21,774 bases of DNA from a virus, in IMG/VR virus record IMGVR_UViG_3300030107_004662, positions 1 to 21,774 of that record. One strand, given 5' to 3'. The position numbers were made by a program, and so were the translations under genes. A model generated the notes under the pieces. It did not search any database. It saw only the letters and a program-made list of their open reading frames with translations, and was not told where the DNA came from. Below are positions 12,846 to 19,340 of the stretch, piece by piece. The stretch's first letter is position 1. The number at the start of each line of letters is the position of its first letter.

Positions 12846-13542
12846 AGGACATGTTGAGTTAGTAGATAGCATGGGAAGTGATTTGACTGTATGCAATGCA
12901 GCCAGAGTTTCTTTCAACAAAGAAACCGATTGGGACATCGACGAAGAAGCACTCTCAAGGATAAGAAAACCAATTCCACCTTGGGTCAGAGAAGAATGTA
13001 AAATCCTTTCCGAAAAGGATGCGAAACTCATTCGCTATCTTGCCAAACACAATCATTGGACACCCTTCGCACATCCGCAGATCACGTTGCGGATTAAGGC
13101 ACCTGTTTCTATTCGCACACAATTCTTCAAGCACAAACAAGGATTTGTCGAGAACGAAATTTCTCGACGATATGTTTCCTTTGAACCAGAATTCTATACC
13201 CCGGAATGGAGAGGCAAACCAACAAACGGTGCGAAGCAAGGAAGTGAAGAATTTATTGATATTGATCCAGAGACTGCTCGGGGATACGAAAATGTCTTAA
13301 ATTTGTCTCTATACAATTATAACCAACTATTAGAAAACGGAGTTGCTCCAGAACAAGCAAGATTTATCCTTCCACAAGGAATGTACACTGAATGGTATTG
13401 GACAGGCAGTCTGGCAGCATATGGAAGATTTTATAAACAACGGATCGACGAACATGCACAGTGGGAAATTAGACAATATGCCGATGCAATTGGAAATATA
13501 ATTTCTCCACTTTTTCCTGTTTCGTGGAATGAACTTACATAA
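12829..13542 (+). CDS. thyX: Flavin-dependent thymidylate synthase ThyX (variant motif)
   Basis: The 237-aa product has the ThyX layout: CNAARVSF near 22-29, HNHWTPFAHPQ (74-84), and the signature segment KHKQGFVENEISRRY at 101-115. The usual RHRxxSxNExSxRY motif appears with both arginines changed to lysine and one extra residue before Asn-Glu. The Asn-Glu, second Ser and Arg-Tyr are kept, and the later ARFILPQGMYTEWYWTG block is typical. ThyX uses FAD, NADPH and methylene-tetrahydrofolate to turn dUMP into dTMP, complementing the dUTPase at 3940-4446. It overlaps the epimerase end by 17 bases with GGAAGG just upstream of the ATG. The family call is firm; activity of the variant motif is inferred. 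Confidence 0.9.
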   Translation: MKVLDRGHVELVDSMGSDLTVCNAARVSFNKETDWDIDEEALSRIRKPIPPWVREECKILSEKDAKLIRYLAKHNHWTPFAHPQITLRIKAPVSIRTQFFKHKQGFVENEISRRYVSFEPEFYTPEWRGKPTNGAKQGSEEFIDIDPETARGYENVLNLSLYNYNQLLENGVAPEQARFILPQGMYTEWYWTGSLAAYGRFYKQRIDEHAQWEIRQYADAIGNIISPLFPVSWNELT

Positions 13543-13581
13543 ATAGAAGCACAGATATTAGTTATTAGGAGAATGTGATAT

Positions 13582-15510
13582 ATGTCATTACCAACCCCTT
13601 TTCAAGATTTTATTCATCTTAGTAGGTATTCTAGATGGATAGACGAAAAAGAAAGAAGAGAAACGTGGGAAGAAACTGTTTCCCGTTATTTTGATTTTTT
13701 TATTGAACATCTGGAAGAAAACCAGAACTATAAAGTATCAAAGAAAGAAAGAGAAGAGTTACAAAGTGCAATTATAGACCTTAAAGTCATGCCCTCGATG
13801 AGAGCATTAATGACTGCTGGCGAAGCACTCAAAAGAGATCATGTTGCTGGATATAATTGTGCATATGTAAGTGCTGGTAGAGTAAGATCTTTTGATGAAA
13901 TTTTATATATTCTTATGTGCGGAACTGGGGTTGGTTTCAGCGTCGAGAGAGATTTTCTAGACAAACTCGCAACAATTTCCGAGGAGTTTGAAGCAAGTGA
14001 TACGACAATTGTTGTACAAGATAGCAAGTTGGGTTGGGCAAAGGCCTATAAAGAACTCACATCACTACTTATTGGTGGTCAAATTCCGCAATGGGACTTG
14101 TCAAAAGTTAGACCTGCGGGGGAAAGACTTAAAACTTTCGGTGGTAGAAGTTCGGGCCCGGAACCTCTGGATGATCTATTTAAATTCACAGTGGAAACCT
14201 ATAAGAAGGCTTCTGGACGAAAACTCACATCGATTGAATGCCACGATATCATCTGTAAAATTGCAGAGATTGTTGTTGTCGGGGGAGTACGAAGAAGTGC
14301 CCTTATCTCGTTATCATCTCTCACAGACGAACGAATGCGGGAAGCGAAAATTGGTCAGTGGTGGCACGAAAACCCACAAAGGTCGCTCTCGAACAACTCC
14401 GTTGCATACAAAACAAAACCAGAAGTAGGTACGTTCATGGAAGAATGGATTTCTCTTTATAAGAGCAAGTCCGGTGAACGTGGTATCTTTAACCGTGCAG
14501 CAGCCAAAAAGACAGTAGAAAAACTAGGAGATAGGCGAGATCCAAATTACGATTTTGGTTGTAACCCATGCTCAGAAATTCTTCTCCGAGACAGAGAATT
14601 CTGCAATCTCACTGAAGTGGTTGTACGCAAAGAAGATACTGTCGAGTCCCTAAAGGAGAAAGTAAGACTTGCCACTATCCTTGGAACTTGGCAGTCCACC
14701 CTTACCAATTTCCGTTATCTTTCTAGTGAATGGAAGAATAACTGTGAAGAAGAAAGACTCTTGGGTGTTTCCCTAACAGGAATCATGGACAATGATTTAA
14801 TGAATGGAAAACAAGGTAAAGAAATTCTTGTTGAAACTCTCCAGGCCCTGAGAAGTGTTGCCGTTGAAACCAATAAACAACTTGCAAAGAAACTGAGAAT
14901 TAATCAATCAGCAGCAATTACATGTGTGAAACCATCGGGTACTGTAAGTCAGTTGGTTGATGCTTCTTCTGGTATTCATGCAAGACATTCTGAACATTAC
15001 ATCCGCACTGTTCGTGCTGACGTTAAAGATCCTCTTTGTAAGTTCATGATTGATCGCGGGTTCCCAGCAGAACCGGATGTAATGAAACCAGAACACACAA
15101 TGGTATTTTCTTTCCCGGTAAAGGCACCGGAAGGTTGTGTTGTCCGCACTGAAATGTCTGCCATAGAACAACTTGAGCATTGGCTATTATACCAAAAGCA
15201 TTGGTGTGAACACAAACCAAGTGTTACTGTTACTGTAAAGGAACATGAATGGATGGCAGTAGGTTCTTGGGTGTATGATCATTTTGATGATGTGAGTGGA
15301 GTTTCATTCTTGCCCCATTCAGATCATAGTTATAGGCAAGCACCATATCAAGACTGCACCGAAAAGGAATACAAAGAACTTCTAGAAAAAATGCCAGTTA
15401 ATGTTGACTGGAGTGAACTCTCCAATTATGAACAGGAAGACAATACTGCCGGTTCTCAGACAATGGCATGTTCGGGAAATTCTTGCGAAATTGTTGACTT
15501 AACAAACTAA
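13582..15510 (+). CDS. nrdJ: Class II (adenosylcobalamin-dependent) ribonucleotide reductase
   Basis: The 642-aa product has the full catalytic set of monomeric B12-dependent reductases. Cys93 lies in GYNCAYVS. Asn328, Cys330 and Glu332 lie in NPCSE. Cys341 follows exactly 11 residues after Cys330, the same spacing as the redox and radical cysteines of the Lactobacillus enzyme. The C-terminal shuttle pair CxxxxC (630/635, ACSGNSCEIVD) is present. No small-subunit or activase gene is nearby, as expected for class II. The enzyme would reduce host ribonucleoside triphosphates to deoxy forms, using oxygen-independent adenosylcobalamin from the host. It is about 100 residues shorter than the Lactobacillus enzyme. 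The ATG follows AGGAG at 13567-13571. It is the last gene of the long + strand operon before an independent promoter. Confidence 0.9.
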   Translation: MSLPTPFQDFIHLSRYSRWIDEKERRETWEETVSRYFDFFIEHLEENQNYKVSKKEREELQSAIIDLKVMPSMRALMTAGEALKRDHVAGYNCAYVSAGRVRSFDEILYILMCGTGVGFSVERDFLDKLATISEEFEASDTTIVVQDSKLGWAKAYKELTSLLIGGQIPQWDLSKVRPAGERLKTFGGRSSGPEPLDDLFKFTVETYKKASGRKLTSIECHDIICKIAEIVVVGGVRRSALISLSSLTDERMREAKIGQWWHENPQRSLSNNSVAYKTKPEVGTFMEEWISLYKSKSGERGIFNRAAAKKTVEKLGDRRDPNYDFGCNPCSEILLRDREFCNLTEVVVRKEDTVESLKEKVRLATILGTWQSTLTNFRYLSSEWKNNCEEERLLGVSLTGIMDNDLMNGKQGKEILVETLQALRSVAVETNKQLAKKLRINQSAAITCVKPSGTVSQLVDASSGIHARHSEHYIRTVRADVKDPLCKFMIDRGFPAEPDVMKPEHTMVFSFPVKAPEGCVVRTEMSAIEQLEHWLLYQKHWCEHKPSVTVTVKEHEWMAVGSWVYDHFDDVSGVSFLPHSDHSYRQAPYQDCTEKEYKELLEKMPVNVDWSELSNYEQEDNTAGSQTMACSGNSCEIVDLTN

Positions 15511-15514
15511 AAAC

Positions 15515-15542
15515 TTGACATCTTTTGAATTTGATGTATACT
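15515..15542 (+). promoter_or_regulatory. Strong sigma70-like promoter of the porin cassette
   Basis: A perfect -35 TTGACA (15515-15520) is followed after 16 bases by TATACT (15537-15542), a five-of-six -10 match. The predicted start is near 15549. It begins only 4 bases after the ribonucleotide reductase stop and drives the 65-aa peptide and porin genes. It is the best promoter match in the window and looks recognisable by unmodified host polymerase. Confidence 0.85.
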
Positions 15543-15548
15543 ATTATC

Positions 15549-15659
15549 TTAAACATGTCTATATAGTAGACACTTTAATTTTGAGTCAAAAAAGACTCAC
15601 AGGTGCATTCAGCACCAGCCCACTTAGCCGGGTTTAACTTAACAAAAGGAGAAAAAGTT
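15549..15659 (+). promoter_or_regulatory. Structured 5' leader with three perfect hairpins
   Basis: The untranslated leader of about 110 bases holds three successive short inverted repeats: TGTCTA/TAGACA (15556-15561 with 15567-15572), TGAGTC/GACTCA (15582-15587 with 15594-15599) and GGTGC/GCACC (15602-15606 with 15612-15616). It ends with an AAGGAG ribosome binding site at 15646-15651. Loops are 5 to 6 bases. The first repeat is also placed where an operator would sit. No known riboswitch class is recognised. It may stabilise the message, insulate translation or bind a regulator. Confidence 0.6.
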
Positions 15660-15857
15660 ATGGCTAATAAATCCGAATGTCCCGTAGTCGGGAATTGTGA
15701 AAAGGATATCGTTTCTAAATCGCTTGCCAAGGTTGGTGTTTGTCGATCAATGATGATCACCCTTGCCCTTCTGCCATTCTCGTGGGATGGTGTAATTTGG
15801 GTTGCAAGTGCAGTCAAATCTCTGTGGGATACCGCAACTTCCGCAGTAGGTTCTTGA
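15660..15857 (+). CDS. 65-aa membrane peptide of unknown function
   Basis: The ATG at 15660 lies 8 bases after a strong AAGGAG. An upstream GTG at 15603 falls inside a leader hairpin and is unlikely. The peptide has a polar N-terminus with Cys7 and Cys13, then Cys28, and a hydrophobic stretch from about 30 to 52 broken by Pro39 and Asp43. It therefore spans the membrane at most once, or lies along it as an amphipathic hairpin. The end (SLWDTATSAVGS) is small and polar. There is no cleavable signal. It is the first gene after a strong promoter and directly precedes the porin (25 bases apart), so it is likely abundant and may work with it. I recognise no family; a small holin-like or envelope-modifying peptide is possible. 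Confidence 0.65.
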   Translation: MANKSECPVVGNCEKDIVSKSLAKVGVCRSMMITLALLPFSWDGVIWVASAVKSLWDTATSAVGS

Positions 15858-15882
15858 TAACCTTAGAAAAGGAGATTTTCCT

Positions 15883-16917
15883 ATGAACAATCTACTAACT
15901 GCAATCGCAACTGCCGCTCTATGTTCAACAGCATTTGGCCAAAATAGTGATATCGACGAACTCCGAGATCTAATTCTCTCTGATGCAAAATCAAGAGTCA
16001 GTCTCGGAGCCCTTTCAGAAGATTCGCCGTTTAAACTTGATGTCGGTGGGTTTATGCAAACTCGCTTCACCTACAGTGATGGTGGAGACACAGAAGCAAC
16101 CCACGGATTTAGTGTGCCTGCTGCACGACTTATCTTCAGCGGCAGCGTTTATGACGTTGGTTATGAAGTAAGTGGACAGTGGAGCGACACCGGAGATTTT
16201 GAACTCAAGGACGCCTTTGGTACTTTTGATCTCGCTGGACTTGACTTCAAGTTCGGTCAATTCAGATCACCATTCATGAAGGAAGTTCTTGTTGATCGTC
16301 AAGATACTCTACAGGTTGATCGTTCCGTAGTTGCTTATACTTTTGGTCAAGGAAGATCACAAGGTATCGAGTTTGGTAAGGATTTTGGCGCATTTAACTT
16401 TCGTGCCGCATACACCGATGGATTCAACAGTGCTAATGGTGCTGGTGTCCAAAATGGATATGCTCTTACTGCCCGTGCAGGACTTGTCATCTCAGATTGG
16501 TGGGATGTCGGTGCTGCGGTTTCGTGGAATGATAATGTCAATACCGACTATTGGACATTCACATTCGACACTGGTCTTCAGGTAGGAAACCTGAAGACAA
16601 CTCTGGCTTTTGTCGGAGCAGATAGGGATGGTGCCCATGACTGGGCAACCACAGCAACTGTCGCATATCAATGCACAGACGAACTACAAGGATTCCTTGC
16701 TTACGAGTATGGTGAACTTGATGGTTCAGTCGATCCCCTAAGCATTGCAAGCGTGGGTGCAAACTACTTCATCAATGACCATGTTAAGTGGACAACCGAA
16801 GTCGGTTACTCCATGAATGGCATTGGTGCAGGTTGGGATCTCGCAGATACAGGTTGGAACGCAAGTTCTACTGATGGCGAGTATCTCGTTAGAACCCAAA
16901 TTCAGATTTCCTTCTGA
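15883..16917 (+). CDS. Outer-membrane porin, OprO/OprP-like
   Basis: The 344-aa product starts with a signal peptide (charge-poor N-terminus, LTAIATAALCSTAFG, cleavage near 19-20). A short helical segment follows (DIDELRDLILSDAKSRV), then a predicted beta-barrel of alternating strands rich in Gly, Asp, Tyr and Trp. GFMQTRFTYSD, KFGQFRSPFMKEVL and VDRSVVAYTFGQGRSQGIEF follow the layout of the phosphate-selective porin O/P family. The chain ends in QIQISF with the C-terminal Phe used by the Bam machinery. The frame is intact, with AAAGGAG before the ATG; that AGGAG sits in the loop of a small GAAAA/TTTTC hairpin. A porin would let anions or other small solutes cross the host outer membrane, or replace a receptor. 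By eye the gene is richer in G+C than its neighbours. The porin class is clear; anion specificity is inference. Confidence 0.85.
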   Translation: MNNLLTAIATAALCSTAFGQNSDIDELRDLILSDAKSRVSLGALSEDSPFKLDVGGFMQTRFTYSDGGDTEATHGFSVPAARLIFSGSVYDVGYEVSGQWSDTGDFELKDAFGTFDLAGLDFKFGQFRSPFMKEVLVDRQDTLQVDRSVVAYTFGQGRSQGIEFGKDFGAFNFRAAYTDGFNSANGAGVQNGYALTARAGLVISDWWDVGAAVSWNDNVNTDYWTFTFDTGLQVGNLKTTLAFVGADRDGAHDWATTATVAYQCTDELQGFLAYEYGELDGSVDPLSIASVGANYFINDHVKWTTEVGYSMNGIGAGWDLADTGWNASSTDGEYLVRTQIQISF

Positions 16918-16924
16918 TGGTTCA

Positions 16925-16941
16925 TCGGGAATGAGTCCCGA
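16925..16941 (+). other. Small hairpin after the porin stop
   Basis: TCGGGA (16925-16930) and TCCCGA (16936-16941) form a perfect 6-bp stem with a 5-base loop just after the porin stop codon. It lacks a following T-run, so it is not a terminator by itself. It may protect the 3' end of the message or act with the terminator 10 bases further on. Confidence 0.5.
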
Positions 16942-16950
16942 ACATTCTCG

Positions 16951-16984
16951 AAAAAACCCTCTGGTTTCGGCCAGAGGGTTTTTT
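16951..16984. terminator. Strong bidirectional rho-independent terminator
   Basis: A 14-bp perfect stem, AAAAAACCCTCTGG (16951-16964) with CCAGAGGGTTTTTT (16971-16984), closes on a TTTCGG loop. The GC core is flanked by A on one side and T on the other, so it can stop transcription from both strands. It separates the porin cassette (+) from the - strand gene that ends at 16987. Confidence 0.93.
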
Positions 16985-16986
16985 AT

Positions 16987-17514
16987 TTAAAATTCTATTG
17001 GGTTTCGAGGATCAGGAATACCGTCGTCGTCTACATTTCGTTTTAACCCATATATGTGAGTTGGTTGTCCTGTAGGTTTAGGTCCACCCTTAGTCCAAAT
17101 GTGGTCGATTTCTCCATCTCCGTCTAAATCGATGGGGAGTCCACCATAGTAACCGAGTCCGGGTTTTCTGATTCCAGTTTCAGGATCAGGTGTGTTGTCT
17201 TCGGAATCAATTAGCATTTGTAAGATATCATAAAATCTGGCACCCTCGCCACCACCCATTCCAAAATTTTCTCCAAGAAACCGAGATTCACCAATAACTG
17301 CATCTGCACCACCGACATCAGCAAACTGAGAAGGTGCTGTTCTATAGCGGTCTTGTGTAATACCTTTATGCATACCCCATGTAGGATTCAATCCCCCCGG
17401 TCCCGCCAAGAGTTCTTGGTTACCCGGTTCCGATTCTGTATTCTTTGTGCTTGGTTTTCCTGTTGTTCTCAGTCTTCGTGTACTGAGTTTTGCATATTCT
17501 GGTCTTCTTCTCAT
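16987..17514 (-). CDS. Unknown protein with a calcium-loop-like motif
   Basis: The 175-aa product has a basic N-terminus (MRRRPEYAKLSTRRLR), a long low-complexity, glycine- and proline-rich middle with no membrane segment, and near residues 129-137 an Asp-rich DLDGDGEID motif like a single EF-hand or dockerin calcium loop. A second acidic turn, VDDDGIPDP, lies near 161-169. There is no signal peptide. Its ATG overlaps the stop of the PAP2-like gene by 4 bases (ATGA), so the two are co-translated, and its stop abuts the bidirectional terminator. I recognise no family. A virion or capsid-surface protein is one possibility, from the composition only. Confidence 0.65.
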   Translation of the reverse strand: MRRRPEYAKLSTRRLRTTGKPSTKNTESEPGNQELLAGPGGLNPTWGMHKGITQDRYRTAPSQFADVGGADAVIGESRFLGENFGMGGGEGARFYDILQMLIDSEDNTPDPETGIRKPGLGYYGGLPIDLDGDGEIDHIWTKGGPKPTGQPTHIYGLKRNVDDDGIPDPRNPIEF

Positions 17515-18107
17515 TTTTCTTTATCTTCCTTGTACCTATTATACAAAACGTGAGCAATTGTTTGTCCTGCTAAATTATCCGTGGGATAATTGTTGGAGGA
17601 AAGGAGTCTAGAATTAGCAATCTTGGTTGCAGTTTCCATGAACACCTCTTTATATAGGGGAAACTGTTCGGCGAGATATAAAGATAAGAACATGGACTCT
17701 GCTGCATGGGAAGAGGGGTATGAAAAAGAAATGGATTCTACAGATTCTTTTAATTCAAATCCCTGATCATCTGCCAGTTCTTTAGGTCGTCTTCTCTTAT
17801 GTTTTTTCTTTTCGTTTTCGCAAACCACTCGAACAACACTGAGCAAATCTTGAAGTTCGTTTAAATCGATTTTTAAAGAAAATTGTTCTACAATATGAAG
17901 ATACTCATTAATTACATTTCCATTATATCTCCTAATGGATTCTAGATCCTCTGGTTTTAGTCGCCTACCAACATTTTCCAGAAGTTCCAGTTCTATAGAA
18001 GTTTTGTCGCTGCTGTCTTTTGGAGGAGACATCAGGAATGATAAACCTTCCAGCCTAATTTTTCTAGGAGGATTTGGGGTATCATTATTTTCATAGAAGT
18101 TCTTCAT
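17511..18107 (-). CDS. PAP2-type phosphatase homologue with altered active site
   Basis: From the ATG at 18107 the product is 198 aa; an in-frame ATG at 18137 would add 10 residues, and neither has a clear ribosome binding site. The C-terminal half carries the acid-phosphatase/PAP2 signature in order: K-x6-RP (Lys100, Arg107, Pro108), SYPSSHA (129-135, replacing PSGH) and SR-x5-N-YPTD (166-177). In the last motif the expected nucleophile His is Asn173. The N-terminal half is acidic and helical, with no signal or membrane segment, so the protein is cytoplasmic. I recall soluble relatives from marine T4-like phages annotated as class A acid phosphatases. If the histidine is truly missing, it may bind rather than hydrolyse phosphate esters. 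Confidence 0.75.
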   Translation of the reverse strand: MKNFYENNDTPNPPRKIRLEGLSFLMSPPKDSSDKTSIELELLENVGRRLKPEDLESIRRYNGNVINEYLHIVEQFSLKIDLNELQDLLSVVRVVCENEKKKHKRRRPKELADDQGFELKESVESISFSYPSSHAAESMFLSLYLAEQFPLYKEVFMETATKIANSRLLSSNNYPTDNLAGQTIAHVLYNRYKEDKEK

Positions 18108-18159
18108 GTAATTATTTATGTTTATTCTGAAATACATATAGAGTAACAAGGAGTTTATT
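18108..18159. other. Divergent intergenic region between PAP2-like and RuvC-like genes
   Basis: These 52 bases must hold start signals for both directions. On the + strand an AAGGAG at 18148-18153 serves the RuvC-like gene. On the minus strand TTGTTA followed 17 bases later by AATAAA is a weak promoter candidate for the PAP2-like gene, and CATAAATA (18112-18119) is one mismatch from the T4 late box but only 4 bases from the ATG. No convincing promoter is seen for the + strand. Confidence 0.4.
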
Positions 18160-18744
18160 ATGGTAATAGCAGGAATTGATTATAGTTTACGAGGACCTTC
18201 CATTTGCATTTTTCATGGACTAGACACATATACTGGCAAGAAGGTAGAGAATTTTTCTTTTGAAAATTGTTCCTTTTTCTTTTTAACAGATGTGAAGAAG
18301 TATGCTAAGACTTTCATGAACAATATTCATGGTAAACTTTTTTCTGAAGTAGAATGCGACCCATCTCGCTATAATAGTATTTCAGATTGGGCAGTGGAAG
18401 TTCTTAAAAAATACAAATGCAATGAAGTGGCACTAGAAGGATATTCTTTTGGTTCAAAGGGAAAGGTGTTTCATATTGCAGAAAACACAGGAGTCCTGAA
18501 GTATAGATTATTTCAAGAATCTATTCCTATTGATATTATAGCACCTACGTCTATCAAAAAGTTTGCGACGGGCAAGGGAAATGCAGATAAGACAGCAATG
18601 CATGATGCTTTTGTGAAAGAAACATCATTGAATCTACACAAAAACATAACCCCCCTTAAAAAAGAAGTATCTAATCCAGTATCAGATATTGTTGATTCTT
18701 ATTATATTTGTAAGATGTTCTATGAAAGACTTAAGAAAAATTAA
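18160..18744 (+). CDS. RuvC-like Holliday junction resolvase
   Basis: The 194-aa product has the RNase H-fold pattern of RuvC: GIDYSLRGPSICIF (5-18) with Asp7, ALEGYSFGSKG (91-101) with Glu93, and NPVSDIVDSYYI (172-183) with Asp176 and Asp179 three residues apart. An IAPTSIKKFATGKGNADK segment (127-144) matches the RuvC region that precedes the last acidic pair. Such enzymes cut four-way junctions made during recombination and are used to resolve branched DNA before packaging, the role of gp49 in T4. The ATG lies 6 bases after AAGGAG (18148-18153). It is a lone + strand gene, divergent from the PAP2-like gene and converging with the dockerin-type gene 2 bases downstream. Confidence 0.85.
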   Translation: MVIAGIDYSLRGPSICIFHGLDTYTGKKVENFSFENCSFFFLTDVKKYAKTFMNNIHGKLFSEVECDPSRYNSISDWAVEVLKKYKCNEVALEGYSFGSKGKVFHIAENTGVLKYRLFQESIPIDIIAPTSIKKFATGKGNADKTAMHDAFVKETSLNLHKNITPLKKEVSNPVSDIVDSYYICKMFYERLKKN

Positions 18745-18746
18745 GA

Positions 18747-19340
18747 CTATATGTCATACCAATTGATTAACAATATAGAAAGATCTTGTGCATCTACAAT
18801 ACCATCGGAATTGAAGTCAGCAGTGCTATCTGTTCCCCATTGACCAAATAGCAGACCCAAGTCGCCCCCATTGATACGTCCATCTTGGTTAATATCACCC
18901 CAAGGTTCAATCTCTACACTATACGCCCATTCTTGTGTGTGTGGTGAATTATAAGAAATAACCTTTTCATAGTAAAATATAATTTTACCATCTTCGGCGC
19001 ATACCTCATAGTCCATAGAGTCTTGTGATATTATATAATCACCTTTCTTTATGGGTACAGTGTGTCTGTATTTGATTTTGCGGAAAAATGGTGGTGATAA
19101 TGAGTTTGTAAGCGTAACCTGTCCCTGTGAAGAAAACAGAAGAGGATATAACCTACGATTGTCTATGTAATCGACATCGATAACTCTTGTTTCATATGCT
19201 GTTCCACCCGTGGTGTGTAACCAACCATCTTTGAGTTCTTCTCGGTGGACACCGAAGGAAACAAGAGGAGGCCTACAAAATTCTTCCTCTCCTCCCACAA
19301 CAAAACAAGTTGCAAGAATGAAGGGAAGAATTTGTTTCAA
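18747..19340 (-). CDS. Secreted protein with C-terminal dockerin-type repeats
   Basis: The 197-aa product starts at TTG (19340), overlapping the previous stop as TTGA, and has a short signal peptide ([17 protein letters not shown]). The middle is a beta-rich domain of about 120 residues with no recognised family. The end holds two 12-residue calcium loops, [12 protein letters not shown] (149-160) and [12 protein letters not shown] (175-186). Each is followed by a helix with Leu-Leu and Trp ([17 protein letters not shown]). This is the dockerin type I pair, and the style with LL..W after each loop is abundant in Planctomycetes. It is the last gene of the - strand operon. Cohesin partners are unknown. 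It may be a host-derived surface or secreted protein; the non-ATG start lowers confidence in the exact N-terminus. Confidence 0.75.

Follow-up and report, generated by a model that had tools for sequence, protein, structure and literature searches.

A peptide–porin unit with a covarying leader RNA at a near-fixed site behind nrdJ in marine T4-like phages

Porins encoded by phages have been described as single cases. The Lc porin of coliphage PA-2 and the lom and bor products of lambda are phage-encoded outer-membrane proteins; they differ from the locus described here in belonging to temperate coliphages and in not being tied to nrdJ, and we know of no peptide or leader of the present kind beside them. 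To our knowledge, no account describes a porin that, throughout a large family of marine phages, accompanies one and the same small membrane protein almost universally and is strongly expressed with it. Our search of the literature on described phage porins returned a single relevant report (PMC8115048), the excerpted text of which describes an OmpL porin encoded with glnK-amtB in viruses of oxygen-minimum zones and traced to Bacteroidetes. As described there, the OmpL unit resembles ours in being a marine viral porin in a unit with a predicted promoter and terminator, but its partner is an ammonium transporter, and no such leader or peptide is described in that excerpted text.

We analysed a window of 21,774 nucleotides, which covers bases 1-21774 of a linear viral contig 24,017 bases in length. 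The contig is that of a T4-like marine phage, and the record contains genes for a DNA polymerase, a UvsX-like protein, a helicase and a primase, a thyX-like gene and a class II ribonucleotide reductase gene (nrdJ), whose product matches PHROG 367 at 1.9e-193; the gene names other than the reductase were judged from the translations. The cassette is placed between nrdJ and two opposite-strand genes, with thyX nearby (Table 1). The initial annotation had proposed that this block carries its own strong promoter, a leader with three hairpins, two genes with strong ribosome binding sites (a membrane peptide and a complete porin) and a 14-bp two-way terminator, and our analysis bears out each of these elements except the number of hairpins, which is four in the fold. 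We do not attribute the features to chance, given their recurrence in diverged relatives, as seen for the promoter and the covarying leader helices.

Table 1. Coordinates of the cassette and its flanking genes within the window
Feature	Position	Strand	Details
nrdJ	13582-15510		directly upstream of cassette
Sigma70-type promoter	15515..15542	+	TTGACA-16 nt-TATACT; 11/12 matches
Structured 5' leader, four hairpins	15549..15659	+	expected transcript start about 15549
Leader hairpin 1	15556..15572	+	TGTCTAT-ATA-GTAGACA; fold
Leader hairpin 2	15582..15599	+	TGAGTC-loop-GACTCA; fold; stems change among relatives
Leader hairpin 3	15602..15616	+	GGTGC-ATTCA-GCACC; fold, covariation
Leader hairpin 4	15617..15634	+	AGCCC-ACTTAGCC-GGGTT; UAGCC/UUGCC loop; fold, covariation
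Ribosome binding site, peptide gene	15646..15651	+	AAGGAG; 8 nt upstream of ORF
Phage-specific membrane peptide, 65 aa	15660..15857	+	one predicted TM helix, about residues 31-52 (hydropathy)
Ribosome binding site, porin gene	15869..15874	+	AAGGAG
Outer-membrane porin, 344 aa	15883..16917	+	predicted 16-strand barrel, residues 50-344
Two-way intrinsic terminator	16951..16984	both directions	14-bp stem, TTTCGG loop
Opposite-strand genes beyond terminator	16987-17514, 17511-18149	minus

The promoter is the top-scoring site within 13500-18500, and it is conserved in relatives: sites with at least 11/12 matches were found in 40 of 60 non-redundant upstream regions, 29 of them with 12/12, against an average of 0.2 in shuffled sequences. 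Since other sites in these phage genomes also carry exact consensus promoters (one to six per record), the cassette promoter is strong but not unique within the phage. For a minority of the relatives we recognised no separate promoter for the peptide or the pair, which there lies within about 40 nt of nrdJ. At the other end, the two arms of the terminator (16951-16964 and 16971-16984) are perfectly complementary, with an A-run on one side and a T-run on the other; it is absent from the terminator-scan list, probably because the T-run is included in its stem. A near-identical stem follows the porin in one relative (L006) and directly follows the peptide in three porin-less ones (L007, L008 and L021).

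The leader folds at -28.9 kcal/mol (z -4.4), and none of 200 shuffles was equally stable. Counterparts of hairpin 1 could be recognised by eye in relatives, with stems TGTCT..AGACA or GTCAC..GTGAC, and hairpins 3 and 4 are present in 43 of 43 leaders, which were themselves picked by eye for likeness. In an alignment of 39 leaders, two-sided changes occur in 8 of the 9 pairs and at all five pairs of hairpin 3, and 99.4% of cells pair; on four of five measures this covariation was higher than in any of 500 shuffles, although the alignment came from a covariance model fitted to the structure, which favours such a result. A search of 634 kb with the leader model gave 39 matches at 50 bits or more, each ahead of a peptide gene.

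The leader shares three hairpins, a UAG in the last loop and AAGGAGAAA-AUG with the Rfam motif freshwater-2 (RF02980), but RF02980 scores reach 23.0 bits in the window and at most 32.2 among relatives, leaving all 25 records below the cut-off of 49.9, and true freshwater-2 precedes another phage gene, unlike the cassette leader ahead of its peptide. Membership in freshwater-2 was thus ruled out by score and by the gene that true members precede, and the leader is a covarying RNA that resembles that motif without belonging to it; the cassette adds a covarying leader RNA with no match to an Rfam family at cut-off. Among 67 fetched pattern matches in viral contigs (L140-L219), true freshwater-2 itself seems to serve as 5' leader to a single phage gene with a product starting MGRPLNKxxFG, often with the late-promoter-like ATAAATA just upstream, and this would put an identity on the gene behind an orphan motif. 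Five cassette leaders (L030, L036, L054, L063 and L071) have a terminator-like stem (e.g., GGGC..GCCC followed by a T-run) in place of hairpin 2, which could be an attenuator.

The peptide has a nearly invariant core, RSMxITLALLPFxWxGVVW, and most copies have two N-terminal cysteines (alignment A1, 15 rows). A scan of IMG/VR returned 151 viral stretches, of which 80 were kept, and the peptide was seen in phage contigs only, with no credible match in 198 Phycisphaerae genomes. Weak matches in Phycisphaerae (best E 0.004, with a stop) were set aside as chance, as was a match in a Mesorhizobium phage (E 0.9) that runs antisense to an annotated gene, and a match to PHROG 28862 (E 0.016) was not accepted as kinship. 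Beyond the latter, neither the peptide nor the window porin gave a meaningful match in Pfam, PHROGs, NCBIfam, PADLOC or the phage collection, and the pairing, which the initial annotation had called unfamiliar, was likewise missing from Pfam, PHROGs, NCBIfam and the phage records that we searched. In three otherwise unmatched phage contigs (L017, L018 and L079) the peptide stands without the porin; the L017 copy is 77% identical and lies in a stretch otherwise without matches to genes of this phage, so the peptide can probably act without the porin. Two of these contigs encode a permuted (two-piece) tmRNA with tag ANEMRIAA, together with tRNAs (L017:9633-10153 and L018:5207-5605), and in the contig with the 77% identical copy the peptide gene lies behind a GroES-like gene. 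The tail of the nrdJ product (CSGNSCE) loosely resembles the start of the peptide (CPVVGNCE).

The porin has a hydrophobic N-terminal stretch and a C-terminal phenylalanine, a residue found at the end of all 77 porins checked. An AF2 model built from 11 sequences (pLDDT 75.6) has 16 strands and an inward L3, and its closest solved chains are OprP (Z 25.4), OprO (25.3) and Omp32 (25.2). In strands, inward L3 and terminal phenylalanine, the modelled protein is a 16-strand outer-membrane porin, sharing its predicted fold and strand number (Z 23-25) with OprP/OprO, Omp32 and OmpF; predicted viral porins are already present in BFVD. The window porin has no match to Pfam Porin_O_P (PF07396), which does match the porins of 4 of 11 phage relatives (best 3.2e-8), and it differs from the OprP/OprO group in lying under Pfam detection and in its few conserved basic residues. 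At a threshold of 90% or more of 78 porins, just five basic positions are conserved, and the window porin has 20 K+R against 46 D+E, which would argue against a phosphate-specific arginine ladder of the OprP type.

Cellular matches to the porin came from only three Phycisphaerae genomes, with tandem porin arrays, among 84,980 scanned, and a deeper search confined to Planctomycetota gave matches at 1e-6 or better in 50 of 199 genomes. In a tree with 23 planctomycete porins, many on long branches, the 31 phage porins form one group (support 100/99), a topology by which the phage porins stem from one old capture, beside Phycisphaerae (Planctomycetota) porins. The phage barrels are 286-307 residues long (295 against a bacterial median of 347; bacterial quartile range 333-383), with several outer loops and turn T4 shorter than in bacterial porins. 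L3, at 38 residues, is equally long in the two groups and is where the phage porins come closest to the host form (35-42%), with the motif GQFKxPxxREELV...ERS common to phage and Phycisphaerae porins. Because L3 keeps its length and likeness while outer loops are shorter, the comparison is what one would expect if selection had maintained the pore while its exterior was trimmed; given the single origin, a host-to-phage change can be read in the sequence itself. Chromosomal porins of Phycisphaerae are longer than those of the phages, at about 400-680 aa, and both their loops and their N-terminal stretch are extended; no peptide was found in 198 genomes of the class. The tandem arrays, in marine Phycisphaerae genomes L123, L124 and L125, each comprise at least three porin genes.

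Given this kinship, and a secreted-looking protein with a dockerin type I repeat (minus strand, 18747-19340; Pfam Dockerin_1, 9.8e-6) that we judge to be planctomycete in style, the host is probably a member of the Phycisphaerae or a near relative among planctomycetes. We know of few phages of Planctomycetota, and the case would link a large marine phage family to such hosts.

A porin scan of IMG/VR gave 53 stretches. Across 95 loci the order is peptide then porin in 71 and porin then peptide in 11, and the peptide occurs without this porin in 13; these are counts of loci and not of independent events, since the set includes nearly duplicate contigs and was in part assembled via the porin. Where enough sequence was available, nrdJ lies directly upstream in 81 of 91 loci, and it is of two types, about 29% identical, with the site of the peptide unit fixed regardless. 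A beta-barrel gene adjoins the peptide, in either gene order, in 88 of the 95 loci. In six of the 13 loci without the porin, the peptide is followed at once by a barrel-like protein that measures about 250-283 aa and ends in phenylalanine; a scan for this second barrel found 30 loci, with the peptide directly upstream in all 29 that could be tested. It looks like a reduced porin, because hhalign links it to the porin (probability 95-96%) and the one model made (L289:2819-3580 and relatives; 253 aa, pLDDT 83.4) has 16 strands. That length would be unusually small for a 16-strand porin.

The porin can also be lost outright. In four relatives whose nrdJ is 90-91% identical to that of the window (L007, L008, L009 and L021), a terminator comes straight after the peptide stop, nearly the same in sequence in three of them, and all four have the leader, three of them also a 12/12 promoter; the 118-kb record of L008 holds no other match to the porin profile. 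Between L037 and L048, the peptides are 94% and nrdJ 92% identical, against 34% for the porins. Peptide, porin and nrdJ distances, compared by rank correlation, did not resolve into a clear pattern of co-inheritance. On these comparisons we take the peptide to be the constant part and the porin its near-constant partner.

The initial annotation had read the block as a moron, which in the strict sense is a recently acquired, self-contained accessory cassette. As judged from the sequence, it does have its own promoter and terminator, but its composition is not atypical, the GC3 of both genes (0.36-0.38) falling within that of their neighbours (0.26-0.38), the peptide unit is near-fixed behind nrdJ in a large diverged family, and the porins form a single old clade. 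A strict moron is therefore very improbable; because of the near-fixed site and neighbour-like GC3, we see in the pair an old resident unit instead of a recent or sporadic insert. Presence in all relatives with matching composition is what the initial annotation had named as counting against its reading, and most of this is observed. The sporadic presence with clean edges expected of an accessory block applies to the porin only, which alone behaves as an accessory. Remodelling of the host envelope, also proposed at the outset, remains the best reading, its early timing being suggested only by position and promoter type.

We consider it fairly probable that the cassette, as a conserved phage operon transcribed at a very high level, serves to remodel the host envelope. 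Its anatomy and the selection on it are observed in the conserved promoter, the covarying leader, the fixed site, the barrel partner with its terminal phenylalanine and fold matches, and the single clade. Host RNA polymerase would read the unit early and at a high level, the porin would reach the outer membrane and work as a general, not phosphate-specific, pore, and the peptide would sit in the inner membrane, acting alone or with the porin. Infected cells would then probably be re-plumbed by the virus via a tiny membrane protein and a slimmed-down pore of bacterial type. A general pore is favoured by the apparent lack of a basic ladder and by loops L3, L4 and L8, which are conserved and not hypervariable. 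The anchoring of the porin behind nrdJ and near thyX leads us to propose, tentatively, that it is a working pore through which the infected cell maintains or increases its exchange of small solutes while replication makes heavy demands on nucleotides, and such solute supply is the single most likely use, with exclusion of rival phages close behind and almost equal.

For superinfection exclusion, the loop-trimmed porin would replace host receptor porins and the peptide would block DNA entry at the inner membrane. The shorter outer loops and the free divergence of the porin under similar peptides (as in L037 and L048) favour it, and tolerated loss of the porin in four relatives, a peptide that moves alone, the precedent of PA-2 Lc and an analogy with small early membrane proteins of other phages are in keeping with it; the conserved loops and the lack of a match for either protein in PADLOC weigh on the other side, and we rate exclusion as a credible but doubtful use. 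Joint action of the two proteins is not required, since four close relatives lack the porin and the peptide also stands alone in other contigs. An unlikely rival reading makes the peptide the real effector (e.g., acting on an inner-membrane transporter or on lysis timing) and the porin a loosely attached accessory under the same promoter: leader and terminator remain beside the peptide where the porin is missing, as does the promoter in three of the four relatives, and the peptide occurs alone in unmatched contigs, but one of the two barrel types stands beside it in nearly all loci, in both gene orders. It may also be, though we would not expect it on balance, that the inner-membrane protein and the loop-trimmed pore jointly take over planctomycete solute exchange or phage adsorption as a phage-specific two-membrane system governed by a new class of conserved phage leader RNA.

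On the opposite strand, the gene at 17511-18149 adjoining the cassette has weak similarity to PAP2 phosphatases (8.8e-6, slightly below the Pfam cut-off) and is also found in close relatives.
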